DNA of 40,501 nt, taken from NCBI GenBank assembly GCA_017396225.1, contig JAFQMP010000023.1:1-40501 (forward strand), read 5' to 3'. Numbering within the stretch: the first letter of the stretch is position 1; each line of letters starts with the position of its first letter. This document shows, piece after piece, positions 29,973 through 40,218 of the stretch. Origin of the DNA: Clostridia bacterium (lineage in GTDB: Bacteria > Bacillota > Clostridia > Oscillospirales > CAG-272). The notes under the pieces are model-generated. The model was not told the DNA's origin. It worked only from the letters and a program-made list of their open reading frames with translations, and did no database searches. Made by a program: the position numbers and the translations under genes.

Positions 29973-32366
29973 TTACATGACGCTTTCGGCGTAGCGCACC
30001 GCCGCCATTGCATCACAAGCATAGTAATCTGCGCCTATCATCTGCGCATATTCAGCGGTCAGGACCGCGCCGCCCACCATCACGCGGCACCACGGTGCTT
30101 TTTCGCGGAGCAGCGAGATTGTTTTTTCCATGGCAGGCACGGTTGTCGTCATCAATGCGCTGAGCGCAACCAACGGTGCGCGCAGAGATACTGCGCATTC
30201 TGCAATTGCCTCGGGTGATACGTCGCGCCCAAGGTCATGCACGTCAAATCCGTAATTCTGCAGCAACAGCTTGACAATATTTTTACCGATATCGTGGATA
30301 TCCCCCGCAACGGTAGCGAGAACAACACTGCCGCGTGTGGCACCCGTTCCTTCACCGAGGGCTTGCTTGATGCGCTCAAAAGCAGCCTTGGCGGCCTCAG
30401 CACTCATCAAAAGCTGGGGCAGATACACGCTCCCCTTTTCAAAGCCAACACCGACGGCGTTCAATGCGGGAATCACCTCATTTTCCACAACCGCAAGCGG
30501 CGGCATGACGTGTAGCAGCTCATCGGCAGCGCGCGCTGCGCGGGCTACCAAGCCCTTGGCAATTGCAGATTGCAACGGGCCTTGAAAAGAGGTTTCCACC
30601 GCTGCTACATGGGTGTTTTTCACACCCGTATCGGCAGATTCGGTCGGCAAAGCCGTTGCAAAGCCGATATATGCGGCGCAGCTCTTATCAAGACCTGCCA
30701 GCGCACGGTAGGCGTGATAGGTTTTCATCATCGGGGTGGAATAGGGATTCATAATCGCTGCCGACAATCCGCGACCAAGGGCAAGCGCAAAGAAGGTGCT
30801 TGTCACCGTATCACGCATCGGCAAACCGAAGGAAACATTGGAAACGCCGAGCGAGGTATGCACACAAAGCTCCTGTCTGATGCTTGCCACCGCCGCAAGA
30901 GTTTCACGCGCGGCATTATCATCGGCGCTGATTGTCAGCGCCAGCGGGTCAATCACAATATCCTTTTTGGAAATCCCGTATTTTGCAGCCTCTGCAATAA
31001 TGCGTTTCGCAATCTCCACACGTGCGGCAGCCGTCGCGGGAATGCCGTTCTCATCAAGTGTCAATGCCACCACAACTCCGCCGTATTTTTTGACAAGCGG
31101 AAAAATGGCAGCCATACTTTCCGCCTTGCCGTTGACCGAATTAATCATCGCTTTACCGTTATAACGGCGAAGTGCTTGCTCCATTGCAACAGCATCAGCG
31201 GTATCAATCTGCAAGGGCAGCGCCGTCACTGCTTGCAAGGTGCTGACAGTGCGCATAAGCATGGCAGGCTCATCAATATCGGGCAAGCCGACGTTGACAT
31301 CAAGAATCTGTGCGCCCTGCTCCTCCTGCCCCAAGGCTTCCGCAAGAATATAATCCATATCATTCGCGCGCAGTGCTTCCTTCAGGCGCTTTTTGCCCGT
31401 GGGATTGATGCGCTCGCCAATCAGAATGGGCGCATTGGCAAAGTTGACTGCGTGTGTGTAAGATGATACGCAGGTAATGCCCTTGTCAGTAACAGGCAGT
31501 GGCTTCTTACCCTGTAAAGCAGCTGCAAGCGCCGCAATATACGCAGGAGTTGTGCCGCAGCAGCCTCCCACGGCGCGCACGCCGAGAGAAACCAATCTTG
31601 CCACCTCGCAGGCAAATGCATCGGGAGCAATATCGTATACCGTCTTGCTCTCTTTTACCTGCGGCAGCCCTGCGTTGGGCTTCAGAATGACAGGAACAGA
31701 GGCAAGAGAGAGGAACTGCTCTACCACGGGTGCGAGTGCGGTGGGCCCAAGCGAGCAGTTGACACCAATCGCATCGGCACCAAGTCCCTCAAAAAGCGCC
31801 ACAACCGCGGCAGGGTCAGCACCCGTCATCAGCTTGCCGTCGGCACCGAAGGCACAGGAGGCAAACACAGGCAGCGTGCTTTGCTCCTTGGCGGCAAGCA
31901 GTGCCGCCTTTGCCTCGTAGGTATCATTCATGGTTTCAATAAAAATCAAATCCGCGCCGTATTTCACACCAAGCGCAACCGTTTGGGCATAGATATTGAC
32001 AGCGTCCTCAAAATCAAGGTCACCCAAAGGGGCGAGAAGCTTGCCTGTGGGACCGATATCAAGCGCCACAAAGTGCTCACCCTCAAGCCCCTCAGCCGCC
32101 CTTCTGGCGCAGGCAATCGCCGCCGCCACAATTTCCTCCAGGCGCTCCTTTGTATATTTTAACACATTCGCGCCAAAGGTGTTGGCACAAACAACCCTGC
32201 TACCCGCCTCAAAATAAGCGCGATGAACGGCGATGACGTCATCGGGGTGTGTGAGGCACCACTCCTCAGGCAGCTCTCCCACCCCAAGGCCGCGCGCCTG
32301 CAGCAGTGTGCCCATGCCGCCGTCGAGCAGCAGAATATTATCCTTAAAAAAATCCAAAACAGTCAT
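29973..32366 (-). CDS. metH: Cobalamin-dependent methionine synthase, lacking the activation domain
   Basis: A 797-residue cytosolic enzyme methylating homocysteine from 5-methyl-THF through cobalamin. The homocysteine domain (about 1-295) shows LLDGGMGTLLQ and the zinc cysteines C204 (GVNCSLGP), C269 and C270 (GGCCGTTP). The pterin domain starts at ILIGERINPTGKKRLKEAL (about 315-570). The cap and cobalamin domains follow, with the Co-ligand H691 in GDIHDIGKN. E. coli MetH (1227 residues) has a further AdoMet-binding activation domain; here it is a separate protein. The start at 32366 has AAAAAGGAG upstream and overlaps the previous stop by ATGA; the longer frame start at 32534 is dropped. 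Confidence 0.95.
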   Translation of the reverse strand: MTVLDFFKDNILLLDGGMGTLLQARGLGVGELPEEWCLTHPDDVIAVHRAYFEAGSRVVCANTFGANVLKYTKERLEEIVAAAIACARRAAEGLEGEHFVALDIGPTGKLLAPLGDLDFEDAVNIYAQTVALGVKYGADLIFIETMNDTYEAKAALLAAKEQSTLPVFASCAFGADGKLMTGADPAAVVALFEGLGADAIGVNCSLGPTALAPVVEQFLSLASVPVILKPNAGLPQVKESKTVYDIAPDAFACEVARLVSLGVRAVGGCCGTTPAYIAALAAALQGKKPLPVTDKGITCVSSYTHAVNFANAPILIGERINPTGKKRLKEALRANDMDYILAEALGQEEQGAQILDVNVGLPDIDEPAMLMRTVSTLQAVTALPLQIDTADAVAMEQALRRYNGKAMINSVNGKAESMAAIFPLVKKYGGVVVALTLDENGIPATAAARVEIAKRIIAEAAKYGISKKDIVIDPLALTISADDNAARETLAAVASIRQELCVHTSLGVSNVSFGLPMRDTVTSTFFALALGRGLSAAIMNPYSTPMMKTYHAYRALAGLDKSCAAYIGFATALPTESADTGVKNTHVAAVETSFQGPLQSAIAKGLVARAARAADELLHVMPPLAVVENEVIPALNAVGVGFEKGSVYLPQLLMSAEAAKAAFERIKQALGEGTGATRGSVVLATVAGDIHDIGKNIVKLLLQNYGFDVHDLGRDVSPEAIAECAVSLRAPLVALSALMTTTVPAMEKTISLLREKAPWCRVMVGGAVLTAEYAQMIGADYYACDAMAAVRYAESVM

Positions 32367-32965
32367 ACTTGCTCCTTTTTGATGCCGACGATGGCAGTCA
32401 CGGACTTTGAGGGAACCATTAAAAGTGAATCGGTTGTTGATACACCAATTAATCTTGCGGGATTGAGTGCGCGAAAAATATCCCCCTGAACGGTGAGAGA
32501 TAAATCCCCATAACCGGGGCTGAAGCGCGGGCAAAGGGATATACCCTGCTCTGCCCGAAGCAGGTCAAGAAATGCATCGCAAAGCGCCTCTATACGCTCT
32601 GCACCAATTGCTTGATGCAAAAGCGCCTTGGTGGGCGCCACCCTGCCGTAGCGTGCAATCATACGGTCAGGCAGGGGGCCGACGGTTGCCACGAAGGTGA
32701 GTGCGCGGTCACAGCCCGAAAGACAACGAGCAAGGTCGGCAGAATCGACCTGCATATAGCCGAAATCAACACCCGTGTCGGTCATTTTCACCCCATGCTC
32801 CAAAAAGCACACACGATAGCAAAGACCGTGGGCCACCTCGGCAAGGCAGCTGTCAAGCAGCGCCGACAGACCGTCATCAGGCGTGCCGCGCATGCCCGCA
32901 TAACGCAAAATCTCCGAAAGATTCAGGGGCGGTGCCCCAAGCTCTCTGACAAAAACCCCCTGCAT
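32363..32965 (-). CDS. Methionine synthase activation-domain protein (stand-alone)
   Basis: A 200-residue protein resembling a vitamin B12-dependent methionine synthase activation domain, the part of MetH that rebinds AdoMet to re-methylate oxidised cobalamin. Recognisable parts are YRVCFLEHGVKMTDTGVDFG near the start, VATVGPLPD, the helix GAERIEALCDAFLDLL and ISLCPRFSPGYGDLSLTVQGDIFRALNPARLIGVSTTDSLLMVPSKSVTAIVGI, matching the R-x-SPGYGD and P-x-KSV features of activation domains. Its TGA-ATG overlap with metF and ATGA overlap with metH fit a coupled unit. It supplies in trans the domain missing from the next protein. Confidence 0.88.
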   Translation of the reverse strand: MQGVFVRELGAPPLNLSEILRYAGMRGTPDDGLSALLDSCLAEVAHGLCYRVCFLEHGVKMTDTGVDFGYMQVDSADLARCLSGCDRALTFVATVGPLPDRMIARYGRVAPTKALLHQAIGAERIEALCDAFLDLLRAEQGISLCPRFSPGYGDLSLTVQGDIFRALNPARLIGVSTTDSLLMVPSKSVTAIVGIKKEQV

Positions 32966-33834
32966 CAGCTGAGAATATCCGAAAGATTGGCGAGAATGGC
33001 GGCGGCGACGTCAGGCTTATTCATGGAATAAACATGTACATTTTTCACACCGTTTGCGAACAAATCAATAATCTGGTCGGTTGCATACGCGATACCTGCC
33101 TGCTTCATCGCGGCGGGCGTATCCCCGAACTTATCCACCAGTGCCTTAAAGCGCTGCGGCATGAGCGACCCTGACAGCTTGATTGCACGCGCCACCTGGT
33201 TGCCGTTGGTAATCGGCATCACACCCGGCACAACGGGTACTACAATGCCCGCCTCACGAATCTTATAGAGAAAATTATAGAACAGATTATTGTCAAAAAA
33301 CATCTGCGTGGTCAGGAAATCACACCCCGCATCCACCTTTTCCTTCAGATGCTTGATATCCTCACGCTGATTGATGCTTTCGGGGTGCACCTCGGGATAG
33401 CAGGCGCCACCGATGCAAAAGCCCTCACTTTTCAGCTCGCGCACAAGGTCGATGGCATAGCGATAGGGCCAGCTTGTGCGGTCTGCGCCCACCAACTCCT
33501 CGGGCAAATCGCCACGCAGCGCCATGACGTTTTCAATGCCCGCCGCGCGCATTTTGAGAATTTTTTCTCTGACCGTTTCGCGGGTAGAGGAAACGCAGGT
33601 CAGGTGTGCAAGCGTGGGAACGCCGTAGCGCTCCTTAATATTTTTCGCAATATCCAGCGTATAACGGCTTGTCCCACCGCCAGCGCCGTAGGTCACACTC
33701 ATAAACGCAGGGCGCAGTGCCGCAATCTCCTCGGTTGCTGTGCGCACGCTCTCAAAATTCATATCTGTTTTCGGCGGAAAGACCTCAAAGGAGAGCGACA
33801 GCCCCTCTCTCCCAAGCAATGCGGACAATTTCAT
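32965..33834 (-). CDS. metF: Methylenetetrahydrofolate reductase
   Basis: A 289-residue flavoprotein of the MetF family making 5-methyl-THF, the methyl donor for the downstream synthase. Family motifs are LSFEVFPPKT near the N-terminus with the general-base Glu, MSVTYGAGGGTSRYT, LAHLTCVSS, NVMALRGDLPEE and the flavin region CDFLTTQMFFDNNLFYNF. The length is typical for bacteria. The start at 33834 follows CGGAGG, and upstream in-frame sequence to 33948 crosses the promoter. It is first in metF-activator-metH. Confidence 0.95.
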   Translation of the reverse strand: MKLSALLGREGLSLSFEVFPPKTDMNFESVRTATEEIAALRPAFMSVTYGAGGGTSRYTLDIAKNIKERYGVPTLAHLTCVSSTRETVREKILKMRAAGIENVMALRGDLPEELVGADRTSWPYRYAIDLVRELKSEGFCIGGACYPEVHPESINQREDIKHLKEKVDAGCDFLTTQMFFDNNLFYNFLYKIREAGIVVPVVPGVMPITNGNQVARAIKLSGSLMPQRFKALVDKFGDTPAAMKQAGIAYATDQIIDLFANGVKNVHVYSMNKPDVAAAILANLSDILS

Positions 33835-33895
33835 AAAAAGCCTCCGTTTTAACCGACTAACCGCACGCAAAGCATTGCTACGGTCCATATTACTC

Positions 33896-33924
33896 ATTAT
33901 AGCACGCGTCAAAATTTTTTTCAA
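33896..33924 (-). promoter_or_regulatory. Promoter of the metF-metH operon
   Basis: On the minus strand TTGAAA (33919-33924) and TATAAT (33896-33901) with a 17-base spacer. The leader is only about 55 bases, too short for a SAM, T-box or cobalamin riboswitch. Confidence 0.8.
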
Positions 33925-34014
33925 GGAATACCACATAATTTGCCACAAAAAGCCATACGTTTCCCTACCTTACCGACCGAAATGCCGCCAAATATTGTTT
34001 TTTGCGTTTTTTTC

Positions 34015-34111: not shown

Positions 34112-35050
34112 ATGGAAAAGTTTATCATTCTGCCCGATGTTACCTGCGATCTCTCGCCCGAAATGCGGGCGCAATTCGGTCTTGTTGACTACGTGCGCGG
34201 CTGGGTGCACATCAACGACAAGCCCCTGCAGACCACACTTGACTGGGAAAACATCTCAAGAGAAGAATTTTACAAAACCTTGGCGGACAAGAAAAGCGCC
34301 GTCAGCTCAGCTGCTGCCAGCCCTGAGGAATATTATCAGATATTCCGCCGCTATATGGAGGAGGGCTATGACATCATCAGTATGTCTATTTCCTCTAAAA
34401 TCAGCGTAACCTTTAACACCGCCGCTGCCGCCGCCGCACGCGTGGCCGCAGAGTTCCCCGAGCGCCGCATTTACGCCTTTGATTCGCTGCGTATGTCGGG
34501 CTCCTTCGGTCTGCTTGTCGCCTATGCACTCGAGCTGCAAAAGGAAGGCAAGAGCTTTGACGAGGTTGTCGCCTGGCTTGAGGAAAACAAGCACCGTGTG
34601 CACCAGATGGGCCCGATTGATGACCTGACCTTTATCGCAAGACGCGGCAAAATTTCCAAGGGCAAGGCCTTTATGGGCAATCTGGTGGGGGTAAAGCCGA
34701 TGGGCGACTCCAACACCGATGGCTACGTCACCGTGCTTGCCAAGGTAAAGGGCATCAAAAAAGCGCTTGAGGCAACGGTGGCATACCTTGCGCGTATGGC
34801 AACCGACCTTGAAAACCAGTATATTTTTATCATGCACAGCGACAGAGAAAAGTACGCCCATGAGCTGAAGGCACTGCTTGCCGAGAAAATCACCTGCAAG
34901 GGTATTCTGATTGGTGATGTATTTAGCGGCTGCGGCACCAATATCGGTCCTGGTATGATCAGCACCTATTTCCTGGGCGCCCCCATTTCGGAGGACTGCG
35001 TCACCGAAAAGGAAATGCTGACCGAGATTGTCGCAGACCTTTCCAAATAA
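34112..35050 (+). CDS. DegV/FakB-like fatty-acid-binding protein
   Basis: A 312-residue EDD-fold protein. FakB proteins hold a fatty acid while FakA phosphorylates its carboxylate. Visible family parts are the N-terminal PDVTCDL, the oxyanion-type loop SMSISSKISVTF, the DSLRMSGS stretch, the segment FIARRGKISKGKAFMGNLVGVKPM and the C-terminal GTNIGPGM. Compared with FakB consensus, TSQPSP is replaced by SAAASP, and the carboxylate-contacting His of GTHxGPG is Asn (N277). GGAGG precedes the ATG. It starts a tight operon with fakA 18 bases downstream, which supports a real FakA partner despite the altered pocket. Confidence 0.86.
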   Translation: MEKFIILPDVTCDLSPEMRAQFGLVDYVRGWVHINDKPLQTTLDWENISREEFYKTLADKKSAVSSAAASPEEYYQIFRRYMEEGYDIISMSISSKISVTFNTAAAAAARVAAEFPERRIYAFDSLRMSGSFGLLVAYALELQKEGKSFDEVVAWLEENKHRVHQMGPIDDLTFIARRGKISKGKAFMGNLVGVKPMGDSNTDGYVTVLAKVKGIKKALEATVAYLARMATDLENQYIFIMHSDREKYAHELKALLAEKITCKGILIGDVFSGCGTNIGPGMISTYFLGAPISEDCVTEKEMLTEIVADLSK

Positions 35051-35068
35051 ACGATAAGGATAGAATCT

Positions 35069-36718
35069 ATGCTGAAGCAATTAAACGGTGCCGCCCTGCT
35101 TGACCTGCTGAAGGGCGGCATTGACAACATTGAAAAGCATCGCTCCTACTTAAACGAGCTGAACGTATTCCCCGTCCCTGACGGTGATACCGGCACCAAT
35201 ATGCTGATGACGCTCCGTTACGGTATGAACGGTGTAAAAGATGCCGAGGCCTCTGCGGGTGTGCTGGCAAAGCAATTTGCCACCGCCGCCGTCTTTGGCG
35301 CACGTGGCAATTCAGGTGTCATTCTCTCGCAGTTCTTCAAGGGCATTGCGGAGGTGCTTGACACCGAAAGCGAGCCTGACACCGCACTCTTTACCCGCGC
35401 CCTGTCGACAGGATACCGCCTTGCCTACGGTGCGGTTGCAAAGCCCGTGGAGGGCACCATACTGACAGTTATGCGCGATGCTGCAAGCGTTACCGAGGCG
35501 GCAGAACCCTTTGCAGATTTTGATGCACTGGTTGCCGTTTACCTTGAGGAGGCACGTGCCTCGCTTGCCCGCACACCGAGCCTTCTGCCCGTGCTGAAAA
35601 AGGCGGGCGTGGTGGACAGCGGCGCATCGGGACTTGTCGCTTTCTTCGAGGGCGTGCAGAAAAGGCTGCGCGGCGAGGAAATTGTCATTGACGAGCCTGC
35701 AGCGGCAGAAACTTCTGCGCCCCAAGCCCCAGACCTCTCGCTCGTCAATAAGGATACCGACTTTTCGCTCGGCTACTGCACTGAGGGGCTGATTCAGCTT
35801 AAAACAGACGCCGCCAATTTTGATGCGCTCGCATTCGGCAAGGGACTTGAACAGCTGGGCAGCTCGATTGTTGCCTCTCTTGAGGGTGACAAGCTCAAGC
35901 TGCACATTCACACCCGCCGCCCCGGTCGTGTGCTTGAATACTGTCAGCAAATTGGCGAAATGCTGACTGTCAAAATTGAAAATATGACCCTCCAACATCT
36001 CGGACGCGAAAAATCCACCAAAAAGGCGGAGAAATTTCTGGTTGCCGAGGGTGCGGGCGCAACCACCTTTGCCGTGGTTGCGGTTGCCACCACGGTACAG
36101 ATGCAGCAGACCTTCCTTGCCATGGGCGCCGATGTGGTGATTCTCGGCGACATCGCCCCCTCCTCCGGTGACTTTATGGAGGCCTTTGCCCTCACCAAGG
36201 CAAAGGATATTCTGGTCTTCCCCAACAGTGCAAACTCCATTCTCTCCTCGATGCAGGCAGGTGGTCTTTACCGCGAAGGGCGTGTCACAGTCTTAAACTG
36301 CCGTTCGATGGGAGAGTGCTATGCCAGCCTGTCGGTCATGGACTTTGACGGCAGCGCCGATGAAGCGGTATCTGCTGCCAAGAGCACCATTGCGGGCCTT
36401 TATGAAATCGGCATTTACCACGCAACGAAGGACGCCACCTACGGCAGCAAGCAGATTGCCAAAAACGCCTTCTTCTCTCTTTCCGACAAAAAAATTCTGC
36501 AAATCGGCACCTCCTTGCGCGAGGTCACCCTTGAAACAGTCAAAAAAACCATGGCAGATGCCGACTATAACGTGCTGACAATCTTCTGCGGCAAGGATAT
36601 GGCAGAGGAATACATCAGCAATCTGATAGAAAAAATCGAAGCATTGGGGCTTGACCTTGAGGTCGCCGCGGTTTACACCGAGGATACACTTTACAGTCTT
36701 TCTCTGCTCTTTGAATAA
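35069..36718 (+). CDS. fakA: Fatty acid kinase catalytic subunit (DhaL/DAK2 domain)
   Basis: A 549-residue kinase. The N-terminal DAK2/DhaL domain (about 1-200) has the Mg-ATP aspartates in PVPDGDTGTNM (D38 and D40) and GARGNSGVILSQ. The C-terminal two thirds match the FakA middle and DegV-like C-domain region (ATTFAVVAVATTVQMQQTF; ILGDIAPSSGDFMEAFA; VFPNSANSI). It phosphorylates FakB-bound fatty acids to acyl phosphate, which PlsX/PlsY then use. The length agrees with S. aureus FakA (548). It sits between the DegV gene and the transporter with short gaps, so it is co-transcribed. Confidence 0.9.
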   Translation: MLKQLNGAALLDLLKGGIDNIEKHRSYLNELNVFPVPDGDTGTNMLMTLRYGMNGVKDAEASAGVLAKQFATAAVFGARGNSGVILSQFFKGIAEVLDTESEPDTALFTRALSTGYRLAYGAVAKPVEGTILTVMRDAASVTEAAEPFADFDALVAVYLEEARASLARTPSLLPVLKKAGVVDSGASGLVAFFEGVQKRLRGEEIVIDEPAAAETSAPQAPDLSLVNKDTDFSLGYCTEGLIQLKTDAANFDALAFGKGLEQLGSSIVASLEGDKLKLHIHTRRPGRVLEYCQQIGEMLTVKIENMTLQHLGREKSTKKAEKFLVAEGAGATTFAVVAVATTVQMQQTFLAMGADVVILGDIAPSSGDFMEAFALTKAKDILVFPNSANSILSSMQAGGLYREGRVTVLNCRSMGECYASLSVMDFDGSADEAVSAAKSTIAGLYEIGIYHATKDATYGSKQIAKNAFFSLSDKKILQIGTSLREVTLETVKKTMADADYNVLTIFCGKDMAEEYISNLIEKIEALGLDLEVAAVYTEDTLYSLSLLFE

Positions 36719-36732
36719 CAAGCGAGGTTATT

Positions 36733-38097
36733 ATGAGAAAAATCAAAAGCAAAAAGCTGCTTGCCCTCTACGGCTGCTCCGGCTTGGGCGTCAATATGCT
36801 CAATATGATTATGGGCTCCTACCTTTGCAGTGCACTGATGACGGGTGGCTTCGTCAAAAATGTGGAAAGCTGGACCTACTTAAACAAAACGCTGGTTGTA
36901 GCAGGACTCTGGGCTGTGCTGCGCTTTATTGCAAAGGCCTTTGACGGCTTGATTGACCTGCCTCTTGCCGCCTTTGCCGACCGCCTGCACACCAAATTCG
37001 GTCGCAGAAAAACCGCCATTCTGATTGGTCTGATTCCCACCGTGATTTCCTATTGCCTCTTTATGGTACCCCTCAATGCTGAGGAAAGCTACCTGAATAC
37101 AATCTGGTTTGGCGCCCTGCTCATCATCTTCTACGCCTGCTACACCTTGACGATGCTGACCTATTACGCCACCTTCTCCGAGATTTGCGAAACAGAGCGC
37201 GATGCGATTTTCCTCTCCAATTCAAAATCCATTTGTGACGTGGTGTATATGAGCCTTTCCTTCGCGCTCGTCCCTGTCTTTGTCGCCTGTGGCATCAACA
37301 TTCGCATCGCGGCACTGGTCTTCCTGCCCCTTGTATTGTCAATGCTGATTCCGATGTTTCTCTTGAAGGAGGACGGCGAAACAGAAGAAGAGGTCGGCGA
37401 GCCCCTGACCCTGCGCCGCTCGCTTGTCGTTTCCTGCAAGTCGAAATCCTTTATGTACTGGATGCTGACCATCTCGATTATGACGGTAGGTCTCCAGCTC
37501 TTTCTCGGCGGCATCAATGAGCTGTTCTCCTCCACGGGTCTGAATATGACTGTGGTTATGGCCTCCTCCTTCGCCCCCGTACCGCTGACAATCATTGCCT
37601 ACAACAGAATTGTCAAAAAGAAGGGCTTGGGTGTCGGTTATAAGTTCATTCTGAGCATTTTCTCGCTCGGTATGGTGATTATGCTCCTTTGCTTCCATCT
37701 CGCAGATGCCGTCAGCGCAGGCACGCTTGCCCCCATTGTCCTGACCCTGATTGCGGTCTTTGGCGGCATTTTCGTCTCCTTCTCGCTCGGCGCCTTCTTC
37801 TCGATTACCTACACCGTTCCCACACATCTTGCCCAGCGCGAGCTCGCGCAAAACGGCAACAGCGTTGCCTCGATGTACTTTGCTGTGCAGGGGCTTTTTG
37901 AGGGAATCGCCGCAGGCATCGCCACCGGTCCCATTCTCACCCTGCTCAAGGACAAGAACGTCATCGCCCTGCTGCCCATTATCGTGATTGCTTGCTGCGC
38001 GATTGCGTTTGCCATGTCCTTCCGTTTCCCGCAGGAAATCAAGGAAATGGGCAAGGAATCTGTCCTGACGGTCGAAACGGCAGGCAATGATTTATAA
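36733..38097 (+). CDS. MFS transporter, GPH/MelB-MFSD2 type
   Basis: A 454-residue 12-helix transporter. AKAFDGLIDLPLAAFADR followed by KFGRRKT resembles helix II and loop 2-3 of the glycoside-pentoside-hexuronide cation symporters. D71 and D75 match in spacing the Na+-binding D55 and D59 of Salmonella MelB. The animal lysolipid carrier MFSD2A belongs to the same Pfam group. No glycosidase lies nearby; the neighbours are lipid genes, so a lipid or lysolipid substrate is inferred. GAGG precedes the ATG, and its stop overlaps the acyltransferase start by 11 bases. A sugar substrate remains possible. Confidence 0.8.
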   Translation: MRKIKSKKLLALYGCSGLGVNMLNMIMGSYLCSALMTGGFVKNVESWTYLNKTLVVAGLWAVLRFIAKAFDGLIDLPLAAFADRLHTKFGRRKTAILIGLIPTVISYCLFMVPLNAEESYLNTIWFGALLIIFYACYTLTMLTYYATFSEICETERDAIFLSNSKSICDVVYMSLSFALVPVFVACGINIRIAALVFLPLVLSMLIPMFLLKEDGETEEEVGEPLTLRRSLVVSCKSKSFMYWMLTISIMTVGLQLFLGGINELFSSTGLNMTVVMASSFAPVPLTIIAYNRIVKKKGLGVGYKFILSIFSLGMVIMLLCFHLADAVSAGTLAPIVLTLIAVFGGIFVSFSLGAFFSITYTVPTHLAQRELAQNGNSVASMYFAVQGLFEGIAAGIATGPILTLLKDKNVIALLPIIVIACCAIAFAMSFRFPQEIKEMGKESVLTVETAGNDL

Positions 38098-38722
38098 CAT
38101 TTTTCGCATCTTCGGCATTGTGCTCGGCTATCCGCTTCAGCTCCTCTTTTTCAAGCGAAAAACCTATTACGAGGACAAAAGGAGCACGCACCTGTACCAT
38201 GGCGGAAAGCTGATTATTTCCAACCATTTCAACATACTGGACTATGTGATGTCCTGCTTTGTTGTTTTTCCGCGCAAGCTGACTGCCATTGCCTCCGAGA
38301 TGCCCTTCAAAAGCAGAATTACCCGCTTTGGCATGAAATTCTTTGGCGCCATCGAGGCAAACCGCGAGACCCGCAGCATGAAATTTATGGACGAGGCTGC
38401 CGCCGTCATTCGAGGGGGCGGACTGGTGCAGATTTTTCCTGAGGGGCGAAACACCCCCGACGGCAAGATACACGATTTCAAGCAAAGCTATCTCGTGATT
38501 GCCCACCGCGCAGGCGCGCCAATTGTGCCAATCGTAACCGACGGCAATTACGGTCTTTTTCGCCGCACGCACGTGATGATTGGGCGCGAAATTGACGTTT
38601 CCCCCTTCTTTGCGGAGAAACGCCCCACCCGCGAGGAGCTGCGTGCCGCAAACGAATTTGTACACGCCAAGGTTCTTGCGCTACGCGCAGAGCTGGAAGC
38701 AAAAAAACAGAAAAAAGGATAA
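38087..38722 (+). CDS. PlsC-like 1-acylglycerol-3-phosphate acyltransferase
   Basis: A 211-residue membrane-associated acyltransferase. The catalytic motif NHxxxxD is N46-H47-FNIL-D52, and the substrate-binding FPEGR contains E119 in QIFPEGRNTPDG. An apolar N-terminal helix (residues about 3-22) would anchor it. Members acylate lysophosphatidate or other lysophospholipids. The gene begins inside the transporter's last codons without a good ribosome-binding motif, so it probably depends on translational coupling. The hydrolase follows after 5 bases. Confidence 0.88.
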   Translation: MIYNIFRIFGIVLGYPLQLLFFKRKTYYEDKRSTHLYHGGKLIISNHFNILDYVMSCFVVFPRKLTAIASEMPFKSRITRFGMKFFGAIEANRETRSMKFMDEAAAVIRGGGLVQIFPEGRNTPDGKIHDFKQSYLVIAHRAGAPIVPIVTDGNYGLFRRTHVMIGREIDVSPFFAEKRPTREELRAANEFVHAKVLALRAELEAKKQKKG

Positions 38723-38727
38723 CACCT

Positions 38728-39687
38728 ATGCCTCATTTTGTTTGGTGGATTCTCGGCGGCTTTGCCGCATCGGGAATCATCTTCTGGATTATTTCCTACA
38801 TTGTCGCGGCAAAGCTGGTCTACAAAAACACCCTGCGCCGCAACACAAGCGACCAATGGAGTCGCGAAATTCCCAGTGACGTTCACCCCGACTCACTCAC
38901 CATGTACCGCATCGGTCAGGAATGGGCAGACGCAAATGCTGCCGCCTGCACCGACGTACATATCGTGAGGGACGGTCTGAACCTCTACGGCGAATTTTAC
39001 AATTTTGGCGGCACACGCTGCGCAATGATTCTTTCGGGCCGCACGGAATGTCTCAAATACGGCTACTATTTTGCCATTCCCTATGCCAAGGCGGGCTACA
39101 ACATTCTGGTGGTTGACCCCCGCGGACACGGCAAAAGCGACGGCACCTTCAACACCGTCGGCTTTGAGGAAAGCAAGGACGCCATCGCCTGGGTACGCCA
39201 CATCGGGGAAGCCTTCAACCAGACCTCGTTTGTCTTTCACGGCATCTGCATCGGCGCGGCTGCGGGCATACTTGCCCTTACCGCCGAGGATTGCCCCGAC
39301 TGTATTGATGCGATTGTCACCGAGGGTATGTTCCCCAACTTTGCCGAATCCATGAAAAATCACCTCATCGAGCGTAAAAAGCCCGTACGCGGGCTGCTCG
39401 GGCTGATTAATCTGGAGATGAAGCGCCATACCGGCCACAGCATGCGCGTGGGTCCCATCAACGTCATTGATAAGCTTGACAAGCCGCTTTTGATGCTGCA
39501 CAGCAAGGAAGACCTTTATTCTACACCCGTTTACGCACAAAAGCTATTTAACAAGGCGGGCTCCAAGGAAAAATCCCTCATTTGGTTTGAAAAGGGGCGC
39601 CACTCGATGCTCCGCATCACCGATACCGCGCGCTATGACAGCGCTATCACCGAATTTTTGGCAAAGAACTTTGCCACCAAGATTTGA
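38728..39687 (+). CDS. Membrane-anchored alpha/beta hydrolase with cysteine nucleophile
   Basis: A 319-residue protein. One N-terminal span (about 3-32, WWILGGFAASGIIFWIISYI) is followed by an alpha/beta hydrolase domain with VVDPRGHGKSDG and the nucleophile elbow GICIGA. The elbow has C174 where serine is usual (GxSxG), as in dienelactone hydrolase. D262 (HSKEDLYSTP) and H292 (GRHSML) complete a Cys-Asp-His triad. AAGGAT precedes the ATG. The domain most likely faces one side of the membrane next to the acyltransferase; a lipase or lysophospholipase role is inferred from neighbours only. Confidence 0.82.
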   Translation: MPHFVWWILGGFAASGIIFWIISYIVAAKLVYKNTLRRNTSDQWSREIPSDVHPDSLTMYRIGQEWADANAAACTDVHIVRDGLNLYGEFYNFGGTRCAMILSGRTECLKYGYYFAIPYAKAGYNILVVDPRGHGKSDGTFNTVGFEESKDAIAWVRHIGEAFNQTSFVFHGICIGAAAGILALTAEDCPDCIDAIVTEGMFPNFAESMKNHLIERKKPVRGLLGLINLEMKRHTGHSMRVGPINVIDKLDKPLLMLHSKEDLYSTPVYAQKLFNKAGSKEKSLIWFEKGRHSMLRITDTARYDSAITEFLAKNFATKI

Positions 39688-39705
39688 TATTAAGGAGGAT
39701 TACTT

Positions 39706-40173
39706 ATGTTTTGTAAGCATTGTGGCAGCGCTCTGCCCGAAGGCGCATCATTTTGCATGACCTGTGGCAAAAAAACCACCGCTGACGCACCCGAAAAGGA
39801 TTTTGATTACGTACCCGCCGACACCGGCTTTGATTTTGAAGCAGGCGGCAACACCGCGTATTCTTACGATTTTGCAGCAGCACCCGCGCCCGCACCGCAG
39901 CCCATGGACGAGGAGCGCAGCGCACACGGCGGCAGAATCCTCTGCTTTGCCATTCTGGCTCTTGCCCTCTCGCTCTCCTTCTACCTCGCCATTGTCGGCA
40001 CGGTATTCTACATTCTCGCCAGGGTTCAGCTTGGCAAATACATCGCCAAGTATGGCGAAACCGAGGGGCGCGCCTCGGTTGGCAAGGCGCTCTCGATTGC
40101 AGCCCTGCCCGTCAACATTGTAATGATTGTCTGCTTTCTGATTGTGATAATTGCCATCGCGCTCACATTATAA
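39706..40173 (+). CDS. Zinc-ribbon membrane protein, unknown function
   Basis: A 155-residue protein. The N-terminal zinc ribbon is C3-x2-C6 (FCKHCGS) and C17-x2-C20 (CMTCGKKT). A linker rich in Asp, Ala and Pro (about 25-75) leads to two membrane spans (about 82-108 and 127-155). The ribbon would face the cytoplasm. The layout (zinc_ribbon_2 then hydrophobic C-terminus) is common in Clostridia, and function is not known. AAGGAGG lies close to the ATG. It is the last gene of the operon, before a terminator. Confidence 0.78.
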   Translation: MFCKHCGSALPEGASFCMTCGKKTTADAPEKDFDYVPADTGFDFEAGGNTAYSYDFAAAPAPAPQPMDEERSAHGGRILCFAILALALSLSFYLAIVGTVFYILARVQLGKYIAKYGETEGRASVGKALSIAALPVNIVMIVCFLIVIIAIALTL

Positions 40174-40183
40174 TGCCGCATAG

Positions 40184-40218
40184 AAAAACAGGCGTGAAGG
40201 ATTCTTCACGCCTGTTTT
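40184..40218. terminator. Bidirectional terminator at the end of the lipid operon
   Basis: Stem AAAACAGGCGTGAAG with its complement around a 4-base loop (GATT), then TTTTCG; the A-run on the other side also lets it serve the convergent DUF4097-like gene. Confidence 0.9.

Follow-up and report, generated by a model that had tools for sequence, protein, structure and literature searches.

A candidate lipid-salvage operon in gut Clostridia whose genomes mostly lack FabF and FabH

What might a bacterium do with a DegV/FakB-like protein, a FakA-like protein, an MFS_2/GPH transporter, PlsC, an alpha/beta-hydrolase and a zinc-ribbon membrane protein, all encoded by six adjacent genes (34112-40173)? 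The window analyzed here, a whole contig of 40,501 bases from a 1.54 Mb assembly that is 89% complete, carries such a series, for which a preliminary description had proposed lipid scavenging and transcription from one promoter to one terminator. All six open reading frames lie where that description placed them, belong to the families it named (Pfam), and follow one another with gaps of 5-18 bases and one 11-base overlap (18, 14, -11, 5 and 18 bases at the five junctions, in gene order). An intrinsic terminator closes the series (Table 1), whereas a promoter consensus scan of the + strand found no match just upstream of the operon. On the - strand of the window, at 29973-33948, a methionine synthase-like gene, a stand-alone protein of 200 residues that matches the B12 reactivation domain only weakly, and MTHFR resemble a split MetH arrangement.

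Table 1. Features of the putative operon in the window, and an example of a related layout
Feature	Position	Strand	Evidence
DegV-family protein, probable fatty-acid-binding subunit (FakB-like)	34112..35050	+	Pfam DegV 3.5e-55
FakA-like acyl kinase	35069..36718	+	Pfam Dak2 6e-37 plus FakA_M, FakA_C
MFS_2/GPH-type cation symporter, predicted lysolipid-type carrier	36733..38097	+	PF13347 5.8e-23
PlsC-type acyltransferase	38087..38722	+	PF01553 (Acyltransferase) 1.8e-19
Membrane-anchored alpha/beta-hydrolase, Cys174-Asp262-His292 triad	38728..39687	+	Hydrolase_4 2.1e-14
Zinc-ribbon membrane protein	39706..40173	+	Zn_Ribbon_1, PF13240 1e-6
Intrinsic terminator, 15-pair stem and T-rich tail	40185-40218	+	-26.1 kcal/mol, z -6.3
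Layout B example	L120 2667-14431		

We searched 85,000 species genomes for transporter orthologues and read 80 loci. FakA and DegV each share a cluster with the transporter at 72 of these loci, the Cys hydrolase at 69 and PlsC at 64; where the flanks are complete, at 47 loci, these numbers become 44, 44, 45 and 42, respectively. A zinc-ribbon-like gene lies in the cluster at 32/80 loci and a ligase-ACP gene at 41/80. Transporters of the loci share 43-76% identity with that of the window, and a grouping that recurs over such a range is far beyond chance. The conserved co-occurrence of transporter and hydrolase with FakA, which had been suggested as a check, is thus borne out over the 80 loci, and the gene order, far from being unique to this genome, recurs in dozens of uncultured gut bacteria; its recurrence across many independent MAGs also rules out an assembly accident. 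As a control set we took 21 further MFS_2 carriers from the same family, with flanks of about 1.5 kb on each side as far as the contig reaches. None of the 21 has FakA, DegV, PlsC or the Cys hydrolase in these flanks, and melibiases account for 6 of the 10 control neighbors tested. A sugar-transport operon was ruled out, given that these control carriers often adjoin a melibiase while the operon has no glycosidase partner; its transporter orthologues, rather than standing mainly beside glycosidases, overwhelmingly adjoin FakA, DegV, PlsC and the hydrolase.

The clusters take three layouts. Layout A, that of the window, reads DegV-FakA-GPH-(ligase-ACP)-PlsC-hydrolase-(zinc ribbon), and layout B reads ligase-ACP, PlsC, PlsC, ligase, ACP, LRAT, Ser hydrolase, DegV, GPH, FakA, Cys hydrolase, zinc ribbon. 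In layout C, which occurs in different families of the order, there is no transporter, and PlsX adjoins FakA and two DegV genes; some loci thus retain FakA, DegV and the Cys hydrolase but no transporter, and these three are therefore the most constant trio. Extra genes in relatives encode an acyl-ligase-ACP (AMP-ligase plus ACP) fusion, a second PlsC, an acyl ligase, an ACP, PlsX and a PLAAT-like LRAT enzyme, and PlsX paralogues lie inside the locus in several genomes. Locus L119 carries at its right end one more group of ligase-ACP, PlsX, DegV and FakA genes, downstream of the main cluster and on the other strand. A phylum-wide scan of 398 genomes at E 1e-70 found no further carrier, and the group is therefore clade-limited; a plasmid collection yielded remote hydrolases only. 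Host animals, where record titles name one, are hoofed herbivores, the collections being biased that way. Three loci from Bacilli/Erysipelotrichaceae MAGs (L052, L054 and L055) carry a window-type operon and fall within the clade of the window (support 99, quick tree), and this nesting, together with the AT-rich stretch read from one locus so labeled, suggests transfer between classes.

The DegV/FakA pair of the operon was described earlier as activating fatty acids in the manner of FakA and FakB, a claim that stands for the families and for the catalytic residues of FakA, with both proteins scoring far below the equivalog cut-offs. The FakA-like protein is placed in the YloV subfamily (458 bits, above cut-off), yet reaches only 339.8 of the 975 bits set for the NCBIfam FakA/VfrB equivalog. 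The ATP-site and catalytic residues of Staphylococcus aureus FakA are N32, D38, D40, T41, N82, D185, C240, H282 and H284 (PMC9136124), and in our alignment the window protein has all nine of these ATP-Mg/catalytic residues, as have 84/84 homologues of the loci. Likewise, the DegV protein is well recognized by Pfam (187.7 bits) and TIGR00762 (192 bits) and matches solved FakB1 chains, with 93.7 of 350 bits, below cut-off, for the FakB1 equivalog. A second, ordinary FakA/DegV pair is encoded elsewhere in the window genome (contig C48; its FakA is about 35% identical), so the operon copy is a specialized paralogue. PlsC keeps the His and Asp of its HX4D motif in 85/85 proteins and scores 56.8 of 103 bits, below cut-off, with TIGR00530. 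No ligase-ACP relative was matched at E 1e-15 in the window genome (89% complete).

Fatty acid synthesis by FASII was tested through FabF and FabH. FabF had no match in the window genome, where controls matched, and both proteins are absent in 19/21 operon-bearing genomes, a loss that is a new observation and makes the hosts look like fatty acid auxotrophs. Across an order-wide sample, FabF is found in 2/17 genomes with the Cys hydrolase and in 201/377 without it (Fisher p 6e-4, uncorrected for phylogeny), and three times sister species within a genus (g48, g24 and g90) contrast in operon versus FabF. FabF is also missing in many operon-free genomes, however, including three of the window's genus, so its association with the operon is only partial. 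A FabF match at 1e-60 is missing in 191 of the 394 sampled genomes of the order (about half), and the genomes suggest that loss of fatty acid synthesis is widespread there. PlsY is present in the window genome, and PlsX was not found in it (again at 89% completeness); a genome of the same genus has PlsX, and its absence as a general trait is ruled out by its presence in all other operon genomes tested.

This locus may well be the lipid-salvage operon of a probable fatty acid auxotroph, serving the salvage and re-acylation of an imported substrate of the lysolipid type. A cation-coupled MFS_2 carrier would bring to the inner leaflet an amphiphile with one chain, be it a lysophospholipid, a monoacylglycerol or a lyso-galactolipid, and PlsC would turn the imported lipid into a two-chain lipid. 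From surplus single-chain lipid, a cytoplasm-facing Cys hydrolase would release acyl chains, or transfer them directly; the DegV/FakB protein would bind the freed fatty acid and FakA would phosphorylate it, and the acyl-phosphate would go to PlsY, or to acyl-ACP via PlsX, which lies in the locus in some relatives. A direct ligase-ACP route is carried by relatives as well. The earlier proposal of lipid scavenging gains from the conserved gene set, the acyl-lipid neighbors, the loss of the galactoside site and the mostly missing FabF and FabH, while we infer the substrate, the import direction, the order of the steps, the hydrolysis and the chemistry of the Cys enzyme. It is unlikely, in our view, that feeding is not the main role and that the operon handles the cell's own lysolipids, produced by phospholipases, bile or acyl transfer, as Escherichia coli LplT-Aas does. 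A transporter with PlsC and an acyl-ACP ligase fits the logic of LplT-Aas (PMC11416262), and layout B has in its own PLAAT-like enzyme a possible generator of lysolipids; but the most constant partners are the FakAB pair and the hydrolase, Fak being a scavenging enzyme, and such repair sits poorly with hosts mostly devoid of FabF and FabH.

The nucleophile of the hydrolase is Cys174, in a GxCxG motif (GICIG), and with Asp262 and His292 it forms a triad that is invariant in 82/82 homologues; this Cys-Asp-His triad is a new observation, missed in the preliminary description. The Ser-type hydrolase paralogue of the same loci (layout B) has a Ser nucleophile in 40/40. Profile searches match esterase Pf2001 and monoglyceride lipases, and in the structural model (pLDDT 95.6) the nearest fold is that of the Pf2001 esterase (Z 31.8, rmsd 2.3 over 265 residues), with monoglyceride lipases at Z 22-24. 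The membrane anchor reported earlier appears in the model as an N-terminal helix at residues 2-36. Mean net charge is -0.45 before the membrane helix and +2.95 after it, and is higher after than before in 39/40 homologues, so the catalytic domain is predicted by the positive-inside rule to face the cytoplasm, and an extracellular lipase is disfavored. Cys nucleophiles are known in the alpha/beta-hydrolase fold from dienelactone hydrolase and PHA synthase, which makes the transfer of acyl chains, instead of their hydrolysis, a live option. One form of it, which we hold to be improbable, is that the enzyme is an alpha/beta-fold acyltransferase using Fak-made acyl-phosphate (or acyl-ACP) to finish the lysolipid imported by the MFS_2 symporter, so that an organism lacking FASII would make its membrane from lipid supplied ready-made by the host or the diet. 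The window genome also encodes a further homologue of the operon hydrolase, a more distant one (G000:C58:12002-12919, E 4e-34).

The accessory enzymes of relatives keep their key residues too, with the ACP attachment Ser present in 55/56 and 44/44 proteins and the Cys and His of the LRAT protein intact in 40/40. This LRAT protein matches human PLAAT2/3 phospholipase A-acyltransferases, and in layout B it is a probable bacterial phospholipase A/acyltransferase; its gene lies between those for ACP and the Ser hydrolase (at 7665-8090 in L120, and in other layout-B loci), with the HYGVYV and NCEHF motif residues intact. Ligase-ACP fusions, free ACP, LRAT and a Cys-nucleophile enzyme together resemble an assembly line, on which a special acylated metabolite or lipid would be made from scavenged fatty acids by the Cys enzyme, as acyltransferase, and moved by the transporter, as flippase or exporter. 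This we find quite doubtful, for the conserved genes of the loci yielded no head-group, glycosyltransferase or amino-acid enzyme, and the cation site retained by the transporter is of the type found in importing symporters.

The transporter itself is a member of Pfam MFS_2 (81.6 bits, cut-off 27), with a sub-threshold match only to MFS_1; with the curated GPH model TIGR00792, the L120 orthologue scores 50.9 of 231 bits and the window protein is unlisted. Aligned with E. coli MelB, for which residue roles are known (PMC8329300), 35/35 transporters keep the cation residues D55, D59 and T121, whereas the galactoside residues are replaced in the same 35-protein alignment (D19 by N, D124 by M or L, W128 by Y, R149 mostly by L) and K377 has become G. 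A galactoside is therefore an unlikely substrate, and cation coupling is plausible. Since MelB orthologues alone are reported to keep the galactoside residues (PMC8329300), their loss in the window transporter is no proof of a lipid substrate; the cation site is conserved in MFSD2A too (PMC8329300). In fold, the kinship with MFSD2A proposed earlier is no nearer than that with MelB. The transporter's profile, run against the sequences of solved structures, returned neither protein at E 1 or better, and fold comparison does not separate MFSD2A from MelB (Foldseek 3.9e-9 versus 4.5e-9; Z 31.9 versus 32.2), so the label "MFSD2A-like" rests on context, not structure. A second MFS_2 group, distant at 30-33% identity, has proteins of about 630 residues that are extended by a C-terminal membrane part (L038 8091-9974 and L039-L042); it clusters with ligase-ACP, PlsC genes and a ligase, plus ACP and LRAT in the fully read loci. 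That the transporter moves a polar product of lipid breakdown, such as galactosylglycerol or a glycerophosphodiester, with only the other genes acting on acyl chains, would accord with its MFS_2/GPH membership, in a superfamily mostly of sugar carriers, and with a fold equally near MelB, but is very unlikely: N, M, Y, L and G have taken the place of polar sugar-binding residues, the genes conserved in the clusters include no glycosidase or phosphodiesterase, and the distant transporter group, too, goes with ligase-ACP, PlsC and LRAT.

According to one account (PMC11416262), Gram-negative bacteria are the only ones in which LplT-Aas has been identified; lysoPC, it adds, is taken up and acylated by streptococci, with no transporter named for this in the excerpts. 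The operon offers a concrete, testable candidate set for lysolipid uptake and acylation in Bacillota, and its bacterial MFS_2 group, linked to lipid genes, could be a simple model for transport of the MFSD2A type. It likewise directs attention to the loss of FASII among uncultured Clostridia of herbivore guts and to a possible way of coping with it. If lipid salvage is indeed its role, the hosts would be obligate lipid consumers, which would bear on the effects of dietary lipids in rumen and hindgut communities and would give a hint for culturing, namely to supply fatty acids or lysolipids.

The literature searched, of partial coverage, held no specific account of a bacterial locus with this gene set, of the LRAT clusters or of FASII loss in gut Clostridia, in keeping with the earlier remark that no described system of this kind was known to its author. 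Among known systems, the MFSD2A lysophosphatidylcholine symporter shares with the operon transporter the MFS_2 fold and a MelB-type cation site (PMC8329300), but the operon protein has no detectable sequence match to MFSD2A chains and a fold no nearer to them than to MelB. The hydrolase shares its fold with the Pf2001-type esterase and monoglyceride lipases, yet in it Cys replaces the Ser nucleophile without exception. With the FakAB-PlsX-PlsY pathway of S. aureus and Enterococcus faecalis, the operon has in common a FakA with all catalytic residues, an adjacent DegV and, in some loci, a PlsX paralogue; it differs as a dedicated second copy with its own transporter, acyltransferase and hydrolase, and scores far below the FakA/FakB1 equivalog cut-offs. 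Like LplT-Aas, it encodes an MFS carrier with a PlsC-type acyltransferase (at 64/80 loci), to which relatives add an acyl-ACP ligase, and re-acylation would take place on the cytoplasmic face. Unlike LplT, which flips its substrate without energy (PMC11416262), the operon carrier is an MFS_2 protein with a cation site; the parts are unfused, FakA/FakB and the Cys hydrolase are added, and the hosts are Bacillota. We have not filed the operon as LplT-Aas because no ligase-ACP relative was matched in the window genome. On our analysis, the best reading is that the operon works like LplT-Aas combined with Fak, assembled from unrelated parts.
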